The notes beneath the pieces were generated by a model. The model did no database searches and was not told the origin of the DNA. It worked only from the letters and a program-made list of their open reading frames with translations. From IMG/VR virus record IMGVR_UViG_3300034104_000300, positions 1 to 20,086 of that record: DNA of 20,086 nt; one strand, written 5' to 3'. This DNA comes from a virus. The translations under genes were made by a program, and so were the position numbers. Positions 5,356 to 11,789 of this stretch are shown here, in pieces. The stretch's first letter is position 1, and every line of letters begins with the position of its first letter.

Positions 5356-5586
5356 TTACTCCGTGATCACCACCGTGTCGGTGTCCTCAAAGAACATCAT
5401 GCGCCCACGGCACGCGATGTTGTAGTCCTGCCCGTTGGCGTCCAACTCCGTCCACGACCGGGTTTCAATCCTGACGTGCTTGGCAAGGATTTCCCTGCTG
5501 CCCTCAAACACGCGCCAGACATGAAGCATGGAGCCACGACCCGGTTGTCCGCGTGACTTATTGAACCGGATCGTGTACTTGGTCAA
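5356..5586 (-). CDS. Small conserved phage protein of unknown function (76 aa)
   Basis: The protein begins TKYTIRFNKSRGQPGRGSML and continues with HVWRVFEG, then a Cys-containing beta-like C-terminal half (NIACRGRMMFFEDTDTVVI). It looks like a small single-domain beta-rich protein. The preferred start is TTG at 5586, overlapping the stop of the fibre chaperone gene as TTGA. The N-terminal RFNKSRGQPGRG stretch looks conserved in similar phage proteins and would be lost if the internal ATG at 5529 were used. No good SD is present, so initiation probably depends on coupling. I do not recognise a function. Its position between the fibre chaperone and the lysis genes is uninformative. Confidence 0.7.
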   Translation of the reverse strand: MTKYTIRFNKSRGQPGRGSMLHVWRVFEGSREILAKHVRIETRSWTELDANGQDYNIACRGRMMFFEDTDTVVITE

Positions 5587-5972
5587 TCAGGAGCCTTGGG
5601 CCACTGAATGTCTGCCGGGAACCCAGGCTGAAGGCGAATCTCGCGCAACGCACGGCGATACTCAATCCACAGCGCCTTGTTGCCCGTCGTCATTGGCACG
5701 TCGGGGAGCATCGCCCAGTCGGACTCTGCCAACATCTTTTTGGCGCGGTCCCAGGCGAGTTCTGCCGCAGACGAGGTGGCGGGGGCGGGTGGCGCATCGC
5801 CCACCTCAACCCATCCCTGATCGTTGTAGGACTCACCTAGCCACGACAGATCACCGATCTGGTCGATGAAGCCGTAAAGGCCGAAGATCGGCCCCCAGTT
5901 TTCAGGCAGCGGCTGCGGTTCGTTTAGTGCGCTTCCGTCCGACAGTTTTTTGAGTTGCCAGAGTTTGCTCAT
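5583..5972 (-). CDS. Tail fibre assembly chaperone-like protein (Phage_tail_APC type)
   Basis: The C-terminal part (about 75-127) holds LAESDWAMLPDVP, YRRALREIRLQPGFP and a WP.AP ending. This is the hallmark pattern of the phage tail assembly chaperone family PF16778, found at the C-terminus of fibre-associated proteins. The N-terminal half is a small separate domain with Trp/Leu motifs (WLGESYNDQGWVEVG) that might bind its target. I chose the ATG at 5972 (MSKLWQL) because AAGGAG at 5986-5981 is 8 nt upstream; the ATG at 5978 would be only 2 nt from it. It follows the adhesin and a conserved unknown, so it probably helps fold or attach one of the fibre proteins. Confidence 0.8.
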   Translation of the reverse strand: MSKLWQLKKLSDGSALNEPQPLPENWGPIFGLYGFIDQIGDLSWLGESYNDQGWVEVGDAPPAPATSSAAELAWDRAKKMLAESDWAMLPDVPMTTGNKALWIEYRRALREIRLQPGFPADIQWPKAPD

Positions 5973-6429
5973 TTTCATTACTCCTTGCCATCAAGGCGGG
6001 TTGAAGTCCGGGCTGTTGCTCGGGGGCAGGAAGATTTTGCCCAATATGTTGATGCGGGGCCATGTCGTTTACGTGAGGGGGGTGCCCGACTCCCGGACTC
6101 AGAAGTGCAGCGCCCCCATAACGGTAGTGTTTAAGTTCTTCGTCAGTGTTTTTCCAGTTTCTCCAACTGGCGAAATCGTTGCGCGGCTGAAGGTGTATAT
6201 GGCACCCCACATTAGCGGCAAGTTGATGGATCAACTCCACCACCTCCACCGGCTGCATGATGGCCCAGATGACGTTGCCGTCATTGCCACGGAGCATCAA
6301 CTCCGTAGTGCCACCAAACGCAGTGCCAACAGTAACCGAACGCGCGCGACGAAGATCACCCATGCGGTTTTCAACCGACATGTTGCGGTCTATATCTTCC
6401 ATGCGCTTCTGCAACTGTTTCTTGTTCAT
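5902..6429 (-). CDS. Conserved phage protein of unknown function (175 aa)
   Basis: The ATG at 6429 overlaps the adhesin stop as ATGA. The N-terminus (MNKKQLQKRMEDIDRNMSVE) is helical. A compact domain follows with SVTVGTAFGGTTELMLRG, WAIMQPVEVVELIHQLAANVGCHIHLQPR and FASWRNW. The C-terminal third is low-complexity, with Pro, Gln and His (PPHVNDMAPHQHIGQNLPAPEQQPG), and ends in a basic KRTKRTAAAA tail. I recognise the first 110 residues as a type common near fibre genes in aquatic phages, without a known function. The last 71 nt overlap the chaperone gene in another frame, which is long for this genome. The extreme C-terminus may therefore be a recent extension. Confidence 0.75.
   Translation of the reverse strand: MNKKQLQKRMEDIDRNMSVENRMGDLRRARSVTVGTAFGGTTELMLRGNDGNVIWAIMQPVEVVELIHQLAANVGCHIHLQPRNDFASWRNWKNTDEELKHYRYGGAALLSPGVGHPPHVNDMAPHQHIGQNLPAPEQQPGLQPALMARSNENEQTLATQKTVGRKRTKRTAAAA
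5981..5986 (-). promoter_or_regulatory. Shine-Dalgarno site deciding the start of the fibre chaperone
   Basis: AAGGAG on the minus strand at 5986-5981 is 8 nt from ATG 5972 and only 2 nt from ATG 5978. The shorter start is favoured. Confidence 0.65.
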
Positions 6430-7475
6430 TGCGGATTCCAAGAAATGGTGACGTTTCCTGCGGGGCTGCTGGCTGTAATCGGATACGACGCACCGGGGGT
6501 TACCGTAACGCAAGAATACGTTGCGGGGCTTGCAGGGCCTCCAGGATTTCCTGCGTTTGCAGAAGTTGGATTATTCCCACGGCCACCGCCGCCACCGCCT
6601 GCGCCGTAAATGCAAGCAGGACCGTAACCGCTAGGAAAAGAATACTGGCTACCGCCGCCACCCCCGCCACCTGCTTGCCTATTATTGGCCGGTGAACCAG
6701 TGTTCCCGTTGTTGTAGTAAAGGTTTCCGCCGGGGCCGCCGCCGCAATTTCCGCCTTGCCTGGAGTTCCCTGGACCACACGGAGGATAGCGTCCCGGGGT
6801 GCCTGGATTGCAAGAGCCTGCACCGCCGCCGCCACCGTCAGCATTACCGCTTGCGCCGCAGGAGTTCCACCCAGTACCGCCCCCATTGCCACCGGAGCCA
6901 AAACTTCCGCTACCCCCAAAACTATTATACGGACATGGGCTTTGATAGAAATACCCTCCGCCTCCGCCGCCACCGCCGTTACCTCCGTAACCGCTTGAGC
7001 CTGCGGTGCCGCCATTCCCCGCGTTGCCGCCGGGGAAGGTATATCCAAGACCCGACGAATTTCCGCCGGTAGTGCCCGGATTTCCCGGATTGCCAGCACC
7101 GCCAGGAGTACCAGTACTGCCAGGATTACCGGATTGACCAGAACCTCCTGAGCCACCCGACGCTTGAAACGGAGAAGTGCTGCCAAGGCCGCCCCCACCG
7201 CCAGAGGTATAAATGGCCAAAGGAGTACCATTTGGTAAGCAATAAAGCATGATTCCGCCACCACCACCGCCCCCTGCGCCATTAGCAGTGCCGGGAGAAC
7301 CGGGTGAAGAATTCCCGGGATTGCCGGGGTTACCAGAACCGCCTCTACCTTGAACACTTACTTTTGTAACCCCCAAGGGCACAGTAAACGTGCCTGGAGA
7401 ATTAAAAGTCTGCGTGCCGCCGGGGACAACAGTCTTCCCCCCAAACAGCGTTACTTTTGGTGTTCCTGCAGGCAT
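6426..7475 (-). CDS. Glycine-rich adhesin-like protein with polyglycine loops and Gly-X-Y triplets (349 aa)
   Basis: The N-terminus (GTQTFNSPGTFTVPLGVTKV) and C-terminus (VTVTPGASYPITASSPAG, then NVTISWNPQ) are the two ends of the glycine-rich phage domain family, in which a beta strand pair brackets a Gly-rich core. The core (about 44-315) has many runs of 5 to 8 Gly, plus Asn, Ser, Tyr and eight Cys, as in polyglycine-II type receptor-binding proteins such as gp38 adhesins. Residues 113-136 form eight consecutive Gly-X-Y triplets (GNP, GTP, GST and others), and 48-56 form three more. A receptor-binding tip protein is the likely role. AAGGAG lies upstream and overlaps the stop of the last oxygenase gene, so the two are co-expressed. 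Confidence 0.8.
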   Translation of the reverse strand: MPAGTPKVTLFGGKTVVPGGTQTFNSPGTFTVPLGVTKVSVQGRGGSGNPGNPGNSSPGSPGTANGAGGGGGGGIMLYCLPNGTPLAIYTSGGGGGLGSTSPFQASGGSGGSGQSGNPGSTGTPGGAGNPGNPGTTGGNSSGLGYTFPGGNAGNGGTAGSSGYGGNGGGGGGGGYFYQSPCPYNSFGGSGSFGSGGNGGGTGWNSCGASGNADGGGGGAGSCNPGTPGRYPPCGPGNSRQGGNCGGGPGGNLYYNNGNTGSPANNRQAGGGGGGGSQYSFPSGYGPACIYGAGGGGGGRGNNPTSANAGNPGGPASPATYSCVTVTPGASYPITASSPAGNVTISWNPQ

Positions 7476-7477
7476 TC

Positions 7478-8065
7478 TTAACTCCTTGCGTGAGTGCCCA
7501 TGCCGTATCGAGCACGCTTGTCTTTTGCGTACTCCGCATTTGGGCCGTCTTTGTCCACGTAATGCAGCATAAACTGCACGTTAAGTTGATCGCTACCCAG
7601 TGGGTGCCGCCAATGAACCGCGTCGCACCCTTTGTATACGACCGCATCTCCAGGGTTCAGAACGTGCTCTTGCGGGGCTCCGTCTTTATATTTTGTATAT
7701 ACTGGGGAAAATGCTCCCTTAGTTGCCACATTAACTGTGACACTTATTTCGCAAGACGGTCTGTCAACATGGGGCTTTAGTTGTTCCCCGGGTTGATACA
7801 CCCGCGTATATGAATACGTCGGTATCAGCGTTTTTCCGGTTGCTGTTTCCACAGCCCCTTTACATTCTTGCAGCAAGACCTCAATCAATGGGTCTGCATA
7901 ATAGGCTAAGCGCGACGTAACTTCAGGGCCATTTGGACTCTCGGTCCACTCGCCACGAACTATTTTATTTTCCAGATACCGAGATACTATGCTAATAGTT
8001 GCAGGGTCGATAAAGTTATCTATCCTTACGCAACCATCAAGTTCAAACAGTTCAGCGTCAGTCAT
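7478..8065 (-). CDS. 2OG-Fe(II) oxygenase-like protein D (195 aa)
   Basis: A double-stranded beta-helix oxygenase core is suggested by KPHVDRPSCEISVTVNV, giving the HxD iron ligands His99 and Asp101. NPGDAVVYKGCDAVHWRHP then supplies a distal His (151 or 154), and FMLHYVD closes the core. No Arg or Lys follows the distal His at the usual 2-oxoglutarate-anchoring spacing; the stretch reads PLGSDQLNVQF. The residue that binds the co-substrate is therefore unclear. Related proteins with a W-R-x-P motif and FLHYVD ending occur in aquatic phages. It is the last of four consecutive oxygenase-like genes and directly precedes the adhesin gene by 2 nt. The ATG overlaps the previous gene by 8 nt. Confidence 0.8.
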   Translation of the reverse strand: MTDAELFELDGCVRIDNFIDPATISIVSRYLENKIVRGEWTESPNGPEVTSRLAYYADPLIEVLLQECKGAVETATGKTLIPTYSYTRVYQPGEQLKPHVDRPSCEISVTVNVATKGAFSPVYTKYKDGAPQEHVLNPGDAVVYKGCDAVHWRHPLGSDQLNVQFMLHYVDKDGPNAEYAKDKRARYGMGTHARS

Positions 8066-8654
8066 AGTAAAACCACCCAGTCACAATGTATTTACTGCGT
8101 TCACCAAACACCGCATTCCCACGATGGGTGTGTGTAAAAGTCGCCGGCCAGATTACCATTGTGTTTTCTTCTGGGCGCAATCTGCGCTGCTGATAAAGAA
8201 ACTCAGTTTCACCGGCCTCTTCAGCAGTAAGAGTGTTCAGGTATAGCATATACACCAAAACACGCTCTGCATGTTCGCCGTTACCCTGCTCCGCATGCCA
8301 CAGATGGTAGCCGCCCCCCGGATCAGTGCGCTGCATTTTCATTGATGTGCCGCGAATCTTTCCATCACGAAGCGGTGAAAACTGCTCAGTATAGTGATCG
8401 TAGCAACGCTGCAATCCTTCAAAGAAAATCCTTGTCGCAGCCTGACCGCCAAACCCGCCGACCGTATGTACGCCGAAGTTCAAACTCAACTGCATGTCGT
8501 TCTTGTGGTGTTTGTGGGAATACTCGTGTTGCTGACGGTTATTCCCCGCCCCAGAGCCAACCAACCGCTCAAACTCTGAGATTAAGTGCTGGCAGTACCC
8601 CTCCGGGTACACGTCCCGGTAGATGGCAATGAAGTCTTTATATTCAGCGTTCAT
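8058..8654 (-). CDS. 2OG-Fe(II) oxygenase-like protein C (198 aa)
   Basis: I chose the ATG at 8654, which overlaps the preceding stop as ATGA; a further in-frame ATG at 8678 has no support. The central motif GGGYHLWHAEQG supplies His120 and Glu122 as an HxE variant of the HxD iron ligands. AGETEFLYQQRRLRPEEN is the typical strand-turn that in prolyl-hydroxylase-like domains reads GGET.F. IWPATFTHTHRGN gives the distal His (175 or 177), with Arg186 or Lys188 as the possible 2OG anchor. This matches a 2OG-Fe(II) oxygenase type common in cyanophages and other marine phages. The substrate is unknown. A His-rich stretch (SHKHHKND, about 46-53) precedes the core. Confidence 0.85.
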   Translation of the reverse strand: MNAEYKDFIAIYRDVYPEGYCQHLISEFERLVGSGAGNNRQQHEYSHKHHKNDMQLSLNFGVHTVGGFGGQAATRIFFEGLQRCYDHYTEQFSPLRDGKIRGTSMKMQRTDPGGGYHLWHAEQGNGEHAERVLVYMLYLNTLTAEEAGETEFLYQQRRLRPEENTMVIWPATFTHTHRGNAVFGERSKYIVTGWFYYD

Positions 8655-9238
8655 CGGAATGCAGGCCCAGAAACCCAAGCCACAAGAGATTGGCGGTCAC
8701 CGTTTGTCACGGGGGTTACTTGATGGAGTACATACGAAGGGAATGCCGCCACCAGACCCCGCTGTTTGCGAACGGTTTGCGGCTGACCAGAAGTAAGAAC
8801 TTGGAGGTTTCCCCCCTCGTACTGGCTCGGATCGGTCAGTTGTAGTACCAGACTGAGTTTTCGACTGGGGCTGAGTCTCCCACCGTAGTCTTGATGCCAT
8901 CCGTACATCCCCTGTTCAGAGTGAGCGTAGTTGGTCAACTGTATGGCTTCGCCAAAACCCGTCAGATCGAACCGGTAATACTGGGCGTTGAGGGAGGAGG
9001 CAATATGCCCGAGTTTGTTGAAGACCCAAGCGGTGTCTTGATTCTTATCCAGCCAGGACACTTGCGAACGGCGGATTTTTGCCAAATCTGCACCCTGCGG
9101 ATCACCCCCAACCTGCGCCCGTTGATCAGCCTTAATGGCCTGCTCTTGGAGCCAGTTCAGTTCCTGCTCCGTGAAGCCGTTCTCCCACCAAACAAAAGGC
9201 TCTATGGGCATGGAGTAGGGGGTCAGCACATGCTGCAC
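8651..9238 (-). CDS. 2OG-Fe(II) oxygenase, PKHD/prolyl-hydroxylase-like protein B (195 aa)
   Basis: The core signature is clear. GMYGWHQDYGG provides His115 and Asp117, and RKLSLVLQLTDPSQYEGGNL is the standard strand pair of PKHD-type hydroxylases. FPSYVLHQVTPVTNGDRQSL provides His172 and Arg182 for iron and 2-oxoglutarate. All canonical residues are present, so it is probably active. The N-terminal 90 residues form a helical cap (FTEQELNWLQEQAIKA). The start is most likely GTG at 9238, because AAGGAG (9249-9244) is 5 nt upstream. ATG at 9211 would give a 186 aa product but has no SD. With the GTG, the gene overlaps the previous one by 16 nt. The substrate is unknown. Confidence 0.9.
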   Translation of the reverse strand: MQHVLTPYSMPIEPFVWWENGFTEQELNWLQEQAIKADQRAQVGGDPQGADLAKIRRSQVSWLDKNQDTAWVFNKLGHIASSLNAQYYRFDLTGFGEAIQLTNYAHSEQGMYGWHQDYGGRLSPSRKLSLVLQLTDPSQYEGGNLQVLTSGQPQTVRKQRGLVAAFPSYVLHQVTPVTNGDRQSLVAWVSGPAFR

Positions 9239-9816
9239 GGGCGCTCCTTGTGAGACACGATGAAGTGGATGCACCGTGTCGGGGTGTCGGCGTTGCTGCC
9301 GGTCAGTTGATGCCGCATCCACGAATTTCCAAACATCACGGTTCCAGGCACCATGTTGTTGAAGTGGATGGTATTGGTAGCGTTGCTGACCTCGGCGTCC
9401 TGCACGAAATCCAGTTCGATCATGGACTTGTTCATGCGGGTGTCGTGGTAAATCGGATACGCACCCCCTTGCGGGGTTTCGAGAAAGAACCACCCGCACA
9501 TTTGGCTGTTCTTGTGGACATGCACGTCGGTACCTGCGCCACGATTGACCTCCTGCGCCCATAGGCCGGAGAGATAGAAGTCGTACTTCTCTACCGCGTA
9601 GCCCTGCCCACGGAGCAGGTCTACAACAGACAGCAGAAGGTAGTCTGCTACTTCCCTGAAGGCGCGGTCGTTCCCGAGATGGTCGGACTGACACATGGGC
9701 CACTCGGGCTTGCGGACTTGATCCAGATATTGGATGCATGTCGGAAGCACCTTTTCCACAAGGTCAGGCCGCTCATCTCGATAGACGATAGCCGGGAAGT
9801 AGGCAAAACCCTGCAT
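9223..9816 (-). CDS. 2OG-Fe(II) oxygenase-like protein A (197 aa), TIGR02466/PF13759 type
   Basis: The motif DVHVHKNSQMCGWFFLETP resembles the H-x-H..S..SG.yYl pattern of the putative 2OG-Fe(II) oxygenase family PF13759. It gives His99 and His101 in place of HxD. PGTVMFGNSWMRHQL gives the distal His169 and RCIHFIVSH the 2OG-anchoring Arg181. The N-terminal 90 residues are mostly helical (PDLVEKVLPTCIQYLDQV). It begins within TAATG at the end of the coiled-coil gene (1 nt overlap) and is the first of four oxygenase-like genes after the tail fibre. The substrate is not known for the phage members. The motif match makes the fold likely, but activity is not proven. Confidence 0.82.
   Translation of the reverse strand: MQGFAYFPAIVYRDERPDLVEKVLPTCIQYLDQVRKPEWPMCQSDHLGNDRAFREVADYLLLSVVDLLRGQGYAVEKYDFYLSGLWAQEVNRGAGTDVHVHKNSQMCGWFFLETPQGGAYPIYHDTRMNKSMIELDFVQDAEVSNATNTIHFNNMVPGTVMFGNSWMRHQLTGSNADTPTRCIHFIVSHKERPCSMC
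9244..9249 (-). promoter_or_regulatory. Shine-Dalgarno site deciding the GTG start of oxygenase B
   Basis: AAGGAG on the minus strand (9249-9244) sits 5 nt before GTG at 9238. The only ATG candidate, at 9211, has no SD within 15 nt. This favours the GTG start. Confidence 0.7.
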
Positions 9817-10061
9817 TAGCCGTCGATGTAAGCCACCAACGCTTGCGCAAATGCCGTGATGTCCGCAGCAGTCACTTCACGAGAGTCAGCGGGCTTGCTA
9901 CGGGCGTTTTCAAGCAACGTATCTTTTGCCATACGTACCATCTCAAGTTTGGCACGTTTTGCTTCAATCGCCAGTTGATTGGCGTGGCGAGAAGCCTCCA
10001 TTGCGGCTTGTTGCGCCAGTTGTGCATCCATTGCGGCCTGTTGTTCAGTAGTCAAAGCCAT
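9816..10061 (-). CDS. Small helical coiled-coil protein (81 aa)
   Basis: Residues 4-52 are Ala/Gln/Glu/Lys-rich (TEQQAAMDAQLAQQAAMEAS and onward to about KDTLLENA), with a heptad-like spacing that predicts one long helix or coiled coil. A short C-terminal helix follows (TAADITAFAQALVAYIDG). AGGAG lies 6 nt before the ATG. It sits between the tail fibre and the first oxygenase gene. I recognise similar small proteins next to fibre genes in aquatic phages but know of no function. It might be a fibre assembly factor or an oligomerisation partner, by context only. Confidence 0.75.
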   Translation of the reverse strand: MALTTEQQAAMDAQLAQQAAMEASRHANQLAIEAKRAKLEMVRMAKDTLLENARSKPADSREVTAADITAFAQALVAYIDG

Positions 10062-10073
10062 TTCTTGCTCCTG

Positions 10074-11789
10074 TTAAGACTTCATATCCTTCATGGCGAT
10101 ATTGCCGTACCACGTCGAACCTCCGTTTGGGGTGAAGAAAACCCAAACATCAACAGCACCCGCCGAGGTTGTGCGAGACAGCGTTGCTGCCCCGCCAGGG
10201 AAAACAAAACTACCGCCAGACCAAGCCACAGTTCTACCCGCAGTGCTGTCGTTCGTCAAGATCAGCGTGAACGAAGACGAACCCGTGGCGATTGGGTTAG
10301 AGAGTGTAAACGTGCAGTTGCCGGTCAACGTGGCTGTAAACACGTTGGCGGTCTGGAGGTTGATGGTCGTGGAGGTTCCAGAATTGCCCAGAGCCACCAC
10401 CGTGTCAGCGTAAGCCACCGGACGGGTAAAGCCCGCAGCGGTAATCCGCAGCACTTCAGCGCCGCCTTCAGCGAACGCGATCTCATCTGCCGTGGGGAAA
10501 AAGATACCCGTGTTGAGGTCAGTCGAGCGGGTAATCACCGGAGCGGAGGCACTGCCGTTTGAACTCAGGGCAAACTGACCACCTGCGGTGATCTGAGCGC
10601 GCTCTGCAAGAGTGCCCGCGTTGTTGGTGTAGAACTCAAGGTTGGCTGTAATGGTCGTGCCAGACGCCGCACTCAAGCGGGACGCAACAATCGCAGACCG
10701 CTTCTCGGCTGCTGCTGTGCCCGTGGTTCCAAACACCATGCTGCCGAGCACTCGGGTGTCCGCAGTTGCGGCGCTGTAAGCGTAGATTTCAGCGGCAGAG
10801 TTTGCGTCCGTGCCGCTATTGCCAACCGTGATGGAGTGCTGATTAGAACTACTGTTAAGCCGGTTAAGCGACGTAACCCCAACCAACAAGTTGCCAGTCG
10901 CATCAAGCGTCAAAGCCTGGGTGCCGTTGGTGCTGAATCCGAGGGTGTTGGTCGTAGCCAAGAACATACCGTTGCCAGTGGCGGTGCCGCCGGTCGGAAT
11001 AAACTTGGTGGCAGACGCCGTGCCCGTGGTCGTGAAGTTGGTGCCGTCAAACGTCAGCCCCGCAGAGTCCGTGAGGTTTCCACTTGCACCTGCATAGGTA
11101 ATCCGGCCAGAAGTCAACGAAGAATCGTTGATATTGTTGGCCGTGAGCGTGGTGCCGTCGAAGGTCAGATTTGCAGACTGACCAACCGCACTTGTAGACG
11201 ACGCATAAAAAATTTGATTGGCACTAAATGTCGTAAGCCCCGTACCACCGTTTGTGGTAGCGAGCGTACCCGCAAGAGTGACTACACCAGCGGTTGCCGT
11301 AGAAGGCGTAAGGCCAGTGGTGCCCGCACTAAATGTTGCGACACCATCCGCTGCGCTTGAAGCAACTTTGGTGAAATCACTGCCGTTCCAGACGACGACG
11401 GCGCTCTCACCCGCCCCCAGTGTCACGCCCGTGGTCGGACCTACGCCTACGATCTTCACAGACTGCAAAGTCGAGGTGGCGTTGATGACGATGTAGGGCT
11501 TGCTTGCCGCCGGAGCGGTAATCGTCAACAAACCTGCCGGGTTACCCGTGCAGTTGATGATCGAATACTGAGAAGAGCCGGTAGACCCTGAGCCAACCTG
11601 CGTCAAAGCAGATGCAGTGGTCTTACTCAGAGTAACCGCTGTTTGGCTACCGCTGATGGTCTGCGTACCGGCTACCGCGCCGTCAAGATAGGTGGTGATG
11701 TAGTCGTTGACCGTATCACCCCAGGTACCAGACAGTTCTCCGGTGACCGGGAGGGCAAGGCCCAGGAGGGAGGTGTATGAGGTGGGCAT
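10074..11789 (-). CDS. Tail fibre protein (571 aa)
   Basis: The N-terminus (SYTSLLGLALPVTGELSGTW, GDTVNDYITTYLDGAVAGTQ) is a recurrent fibre attachment domain in aquatic phages. The middle part carries NGGTGLTTF (180-188), a motif common in trimeric fibres. It also has repeated beta units with the pattern LTFDGTxxTxxx and LTLDATGNLLVGV. The C-terminal 110 residues (NLQTANVFTATLTGNCTFTL, SGGSFVFPGGAATLSRTT, VDVWVFFTPNGGSTWYG) form a separate beta domain I recognise at the end of many such fibres. There is no intramolecular chaperone (peptidase S74) ending. A GGAG overlapping the previous stop serves as SD. The role would be host recognition, possibly with the downstream glycine-rich adhesin at the tip. 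Confidence 0.88.
   Translation of the reverse strand: MPTSYTSLLGLALPVTGELSGTWGDTVNDYITTYLDGAVAGTQTISGSQTAVTLSKTTASALTQVGSGSTGSSQYSIINCTGNPAGLLTITAPAASKPYIVINATSTLQSVKIVGVGPTTGVTLGAGESAVVVWNGSDFTKVASSAADGVATFSAGTTGLTPSTATAGVVTLAGTLATTNGGTGLTTFSANQIFYASSTSAVGQSANLTFDGTTLTANNINDSSLTSGRITYAGASGNLTDSAGLTFDGTNFTTTGTASATKFIPTGGTATGNGMFLATTNTLGFSTNGTQALTLDATGNLLVGVTSLNRLNSSSNQHSITVGNSGTDANSAAEIYAYSAATADTRVLGSMVFGTTGTAAAEKRSAIVASRLSAASGTTITANLEFYTNNAGTLAERAQITAGGQFALSSNGSASAPVITRSTDLNTGIFFPTADEIAFAEGGAEVLRITAAGFTRPVAYADTVVALGNSGTSTTINLQTANVFTATLTGNCTFTLSNPIATGSSSFTLILTNDSTAGRTVAWSGGSFVFPGGAATLSRTTSAGAVDVWVFFTPNGGSTWYGNIAMKDMKS

Follow-up and report, generated by a model that had tools for sequence, protein, structure and literature searches.

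The window analysed here is a stretch of 20,086 bases from a virus record, whose main genes lie on the minus strand. In minus-strand order, these are capsid and structural genes, a tail fibre gene, a small gene (g0), four oxygenase-like genes (g1 to g4), genes encoding a glycine-rich protein and a tail assembly chaperone, lysis genes and further virion genes. The central features are:

10074-11789, minus strand: tail fibre protein (phrog_7760 tail fiber, 5.2e-9), the first conserved member of the module
9816-10061, minus strand: g0, an 81-aa protein with homologs in 165 related loci
9223-9816, minus strand: g1, 2OG-Fe(II) oxygenase of the PF13759 type (PF13759, 2.2e-9)
8651-9238, minus strand: g2, 2OG-Fe(II) oxygenase of the PF13640 type (PF13640, 5.6e-14)
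8058-8654, minus strand: g3, 2OG-Fe(II) oxygenase of the PF13640 type with an H-x-E motif (PF13640, 7.3e-12)
7478-8065, minus strand: g4, a PHROG "ferrochelatase" (phrog_2954, 1.8e-45) with a predicted 2OG oxygenase fold
6426-7475, minus strand: glycine-rich protein, probable tail-tip adhesin (34% G, GNPG/GSPG repeats)
5583-5978, minus strand: phage tail assembly chaperone (PF16778, 1.5e-14)

The four genes to which a preliminary description had attributed iron-ligand motifs were all recovered, with the motifs at the sites reported: HVH at residues 99-101 of g1, HQD at residues 115-117 of g2 if the GTG at 9238 is the start (106-108 if it is the ATG at 9211), HAE at residues 120-122 of g3 (counted from the ATG at 8654) and HVD at residues 99-101 of g4. 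The described overlaps of 4 nt (g2/g3) and 8 nt (g3/g4) are exact, and that of 16 nt (g1/g2) requires that g2 start at the GTG at 9238. This start is the better supported one, because 42 of the 65 distinct homologous junctions keep a start codon at this position; a start generating a 4-nt overlap is found in 21 more. Furthermore, the g0 stop codon and the g1 start codon share one base (TAATG), and the glycine-rich gene starts 2 nt past the g4 stop. A tail fibre gene and a probable adhesin gene do flank the oxygenases, as had been proposed, but g0, which is conserved between the tail fibre gene and g1, intervenes directly before g1. The tail fibre gene precedes the cassette in most related loci, and the arrangement of the chaperone gene after the glycine-rich gene is also conserved in these loci. 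No near relative was found by DNA comparison in the phage collection, and no RNA element was found in the stretch. Another minus-strand gene (2-802), open at the window edge, encodes a proline-rich protein that harbours 22 copies of the tetrapeptide PVAP, encoded by a 12-nt tandem repeat (158-421); PVAP repeats are also present in several relatives, and PSPS repeats replace them in two related loci.

The proteins encoded by g1, g2 and g3 exceed the curated Pfam cut-offs, and that encoded by g4 scores below its cut-off. While g1 reaches the cut-off of PF13759, it scores 39.2 bits against TIGR02466 (cut-off 62.5); g2 is a relative rather than a member of the PKHD-type equivalog PRK05467 (65 bits for a cut-off of 143). 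The iron ligands vary hardly or not at all among the unique homologs (105 for g1, 108 for g2, 108 for g3 and 68 for g4). Indeed, H99, H101 and H169 are invariant in g1, as are H106, D108 and H163 in g2 (numbered from ATG 9211), H120, E122 and H175 or H177 in g3, and H99, D101 and H151 in g4. In g1, which combines H-x-H with a third histidine, the latter may stand in place of the carboxylate of the two-His-one-carboxylate triad. A basic residue that might bind the 2OG carboxylate lies near the usual place in g2 (R173) and g3 (K188), and g1 and g4 possess an invariant arginine elsewhere, of less certain role. The dN/dS ratios of the four genes, about 0.06-0.12 (from 7 comparisons for g3 and 3 for g4), indicate purifying selection on each of them.

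The nearest relatives of known structure differ between the four enzymes. The AlphaFold model of g1 (pLDDT 76) gives as top fold matches the PF13759 relatives 3bvc and 2rg4 (E 2e-8), whereas the nearest solved relatives of g2 are PKHD-type hydroxylases (3dkq, 6.8e-11; PiuC) and the nearest solved sequences to g3 are prolyl 4-hydroxylases (P4Hs; 5c5t, 0.0021). Searching the PDB by sequence gave no match for g4; its AlphaFold model (pLDDT 92) has the P. putida P4H as top Foldseek match (E 4e-9) and also matches PHD2. Both g3 and g4 share fold and ligands with prolyl 4-hydroxylases (PDB 5c5t, Bacillus 5hv0 and P. putida 4iw3), from which g4 differs by an identity of only about 15% over the structural match. 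None of the four was found to lack a beta-helix fold, this being seen by model for g1 and g4 and by profile only for g2 and g3. On these sequence and model comparisons, three of the four enzymes most resemble hydroxylases of proteins or peptides. The initial reading of four different, co-translated 2OG-Fe(II) oxygenase-like enzymes is therefore borne out by Pfam matches, ligands, folds and gene spacing. The statement that they are not close copies of one another also holds: profile-profile comparison reveals no detectable similarity among g1-g4, which argues against a recent tandem duplication; as the alignments are shallow, an ancient one may have escaped detection.

The identity of g4 probably has to be revised. 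Besides the predicted oxygenase fold, g4 gives no match to the ferrochelatase family PF00762 at E 10, its homologs give none at E 1, and the H-x-D...H signature is invariant in 11 diverse members of the g4 family, including T4-GC 615 of S-SM2, several of which are annotated as ferrochelatase in RefSeq. The label "ferrochelatase" for these phage proteins, on which published arguments about auxiliary metabolism draw (PMC3037559, PMC9599517, PMC11561400), is therefore probably wrong, and the g4 family would also be an oxygenase family. The modelled fold thus undercuts the iron-heme reading that was based on this label (PMC9599517, PMC11561400). In addition, g4 is missing from about 40% of related cassettes, and the tree implies 15 or more changes between its presence and absence.

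The idea that four such genes in a row are exceptional is not supported. Sets of several oxygenase genes occur commonly in aquatic phages, and tandems of this kind were known already: sets of three to five lie beside tail genes in HTVC008M (five adjacent annotated copies), S-SM2 (four, flanked by tail fibre genes), P-RSM4 (three plus two), Bellamy (four), HTVC023P (three together) and S-CAM8 (four plus two), and the run of ten genes gp45-gp54 of syn9 includes about nine oxygenase-like genes, some by marginal matches only. Many oxygenases per marine phage have already been reported (PMC9602691, PMC9599517), with 24 counted in S-SCSM1 (PMC9602691). The five consecutive genes of HTVC008M (I899_gp068-gp072) include g2-, g3- and g4-type homologs, and a 33% glycine protein is encoded three genes from this run; however, HTVC008M is a T4-like myovirus, and its glycine-rich gene lies uncoupled on the opposite strand. 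In S-SM2, P-RSM4, S-CAM8, Bellamy and syn9, oxygenase genes form uninterrupted runs of two to about nine within the tail region, with adjacent g2 and g4 homologs in most of them, but gene content and order vary and there is no fixed tie to one glycine-rich gene. The order g2-g1-g4, adjoining genes for 24-34% glycine proteins, is found in HTVC023P and HTVC033P. These HTVC023P-type pelagiphages differ by the lack of g3 and by the interpretation given to the genes, which were read as auxiliary metabolic with an iron-heme link (PMC9599517), a reading against which the g4 fold argues.

Several annotations in these regions also deserve mention. The syn9 genes gp51-gp53 (L251:10210-11914) and the gene at L002:10361-10873 match PF13640 or DUF6445 and are annotated as "DNA endonuclease (V)" or "minor coat protein", labels that look wrong. 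Within the syn9 oxygenase run, gp49 (L251:8909-9616) encodes a JmjC/cupin-type oxygenase (PF08007, 1.3e-16). Tryptophan halogenase genes lie near the oxygenase clusters of HTVC008M (L003:293-1687) and syn9 (L251:2277-5382).

What is new here is that the cassette belongs to a fixed module comprising the tail fibre gene, a small ORF, the oxygenase genes, the glycine-rich protein gene and the chaperone gene. The glycine-rich protein, probably a tail-tip adhesin, contains about 33-34% glycine, is rich in proline and asparagine, carries little charge and includes GNPG/GSPG repeats; 47% of its 36 prolines precede a glycine, as do those hydroxylated in the X-Pro-Gly repeats of the collagen-type prolyl 4-hydroxylase system. 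A sequence search of the PDB with this protein gave no match. Its linkage to the oxygenases was analysed using four viral scans plus local profiles. The order tail fibre, g0, g1, g2, g3, (g4), glycine-rich protein, chaperone dominates the related contigs. Among 112 distinct contig variants, the median distance between the last oxygenase gene and the start of the glycine-rich gene is 0 nt when g4 is present (n = 69) and 7 nt when it is absent (n = 43), and this tight spacing holds although g4 has so frequently switched state. Proline content shows only a trend with g4, towards more proline when the gene is present: when relatedness is allowed for, this trend is not significant (median p 0.07 for proline count and 0.25 for proline percentage), and residues other than proline also follow such a trend.

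The link extends to distant marine phages. A glycine-rich ORF is present in 56 of 80 contigs anchored on g4 homologs, and within 500 nt of an oxygenase gene in 44 of them, versus 1 of 80 terminase-anchored and 1 of 45 tail-fibre-anchored control contigs (Fisher 2e-22 and 6e-15, respectively, p-values that overstate the case as the contigs are related). This contrast persists at all glycine thresholds from 18% to 30%. The genomes of HTVC033P, HTVC008M and S-CAM8 each have no more than one or two glycine-rich genes, all of them at most three genes from the oxygenase cluster; in P-RSM4, one lies two genes upstream of the oxygenases, and in Bellamy the cassette is located among six of them. Shift tests of the link within single genomes, too weak alone, gave no individually significant result. 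The tested distant glycine-rich proteins match phrog_2295 and that of this stretch does not; therefore, the link apparently involves two families of glycine-rich proteins. It is not universal, as no glycine-rich neighbour was found beside the oxygenase genes of S-T4, S-SCSM1 (in the region seen), S-SKS1 and MW202545. Bacterial g3 homologs are mostly single genes with no clear glycine-rich partner, a test blurred by chance ORFs in high-GC DNA. In the literature searched, which included few subscription journals, neither a description of the oxygenase/glycine-rich link nor anything relevant on prolyl hydroxylation of phage tail proteins was found.

These data suggest, with about even confidence, that the co-translated g1-g4 products are hydroxylases that modify the glycine-rich tail-tip protein encoded right after them. 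With Fe(II) held by its H-x-D/E/H...H ligands, each enzyme would convert 2-oxoglutarate oxidatively into succinate and CO2, and side chains, most likely of proline and perhaps of asparagine, would be hydroxylated in the GNPG-type repeats. The reaction would occur during synthesis of the glycine-rich protein and its assembly with the chaperone, and might benefit the phage by altering tip stability or receptor contact. The dedicated modification pathway initially proposed is thus plausible and gains a named candidate substrate, although its enzymatic activity is something that we only infer. Enterobacterial phages are known to have glycine-rich adhesins in the absence of such enzymes, which counts against hydroxylation of the tip. 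Furthermore, the proximity of the genes may reflect only a shared location in the tail region, but the tail-fibre control argues otherwise.

The strongest alternative within the module, though an unlikely one, is that another virion protein is hydroxylated, either the upstream tail fibre or the PVAP-repeat protein. Indeed, in this clade the linkage of the oxygenases to the tail fibre gene is as tight as that to the glycine-rich gene, which weighs against the tip as target, and the PVAP repeat resembles the proline-rich targets of viral P4Hs. However, the recurrent partner across other phages is the glycine-rich protein, oxygenases were found in none of the 45 tail-fibre control contigs, and some loci of repeat-protein homologs have PSPS instead of PVAP or, in one case, neither. 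The PVAP-repeat protein is possibly an extra proline-rich target.

Outside the module, the strongest alternative, rather unlikely in our opinion, is an auxiliary metabolic role, in which the oxygenases would act on host metabolites or shift 2-oxoglutarate, steering host nitrogen or energy metabolism. This is the published interpretation, put forward for cyanophages (PMC3037559) and pelagiphages (PMC9599517, PMC11561400), and it agrees with the scattered single oxygenase genes found away from tail genes. It accounts poorly for a fixed position in the tail gene block, for the coupling to a probable structural gene and for the joint retention of distinct enzymes, each apparently under purifying selection. 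Modification of a host macromolecule, such as EF-Tu, or of host surface glycans, which would aid infection or block superinfection, appears quite improbable. The best fold match of g4 is the P. putida P4H-EF-Tu complex, in which the P4H modifies EF-Tu, and carbamoyl- or glycosyltransferase genes adjoin some cassettes; yet fold similarity at 15% identity says nothing on the substrate, and no such transferase neighbours occur in the 20,086 bases. That the enzymes modify DNA bases, being of the TET/JBP or AlkB kind, is very improbable: AlkB is among the g4 fold matches and PF13532 gives a weak score, but the genes lie in the tail gene block, their nearest families are P4H, PKHD and PF13759, and Tet_JBP is marginal at best, even in relatives.

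Globally, the original observation is real and correctly described, and its interest lies in the partner gene at a fixed position and in the probable new identity of g4. Hydroxylation of the tail tip might also apply more largely: somewhat more tentatively than for this locus, it can be proposed that several distant aquatic phage lineages possess a multi-enzyme hydroxylation system for glycine-rich tail-tip adhesins, a phage counterpart of collagen maturation, of which the gene named "ferrochelatase" in many phage genomes would encode one enzyme. The 2OG oxygenase genes are frequent and unexplained in marine phages and are usually classed as auxiliary metabolism genes. The recurrent partner gene supplies a testable substrate and would shift these enzymes from auxiliary metabolism to host recognition.
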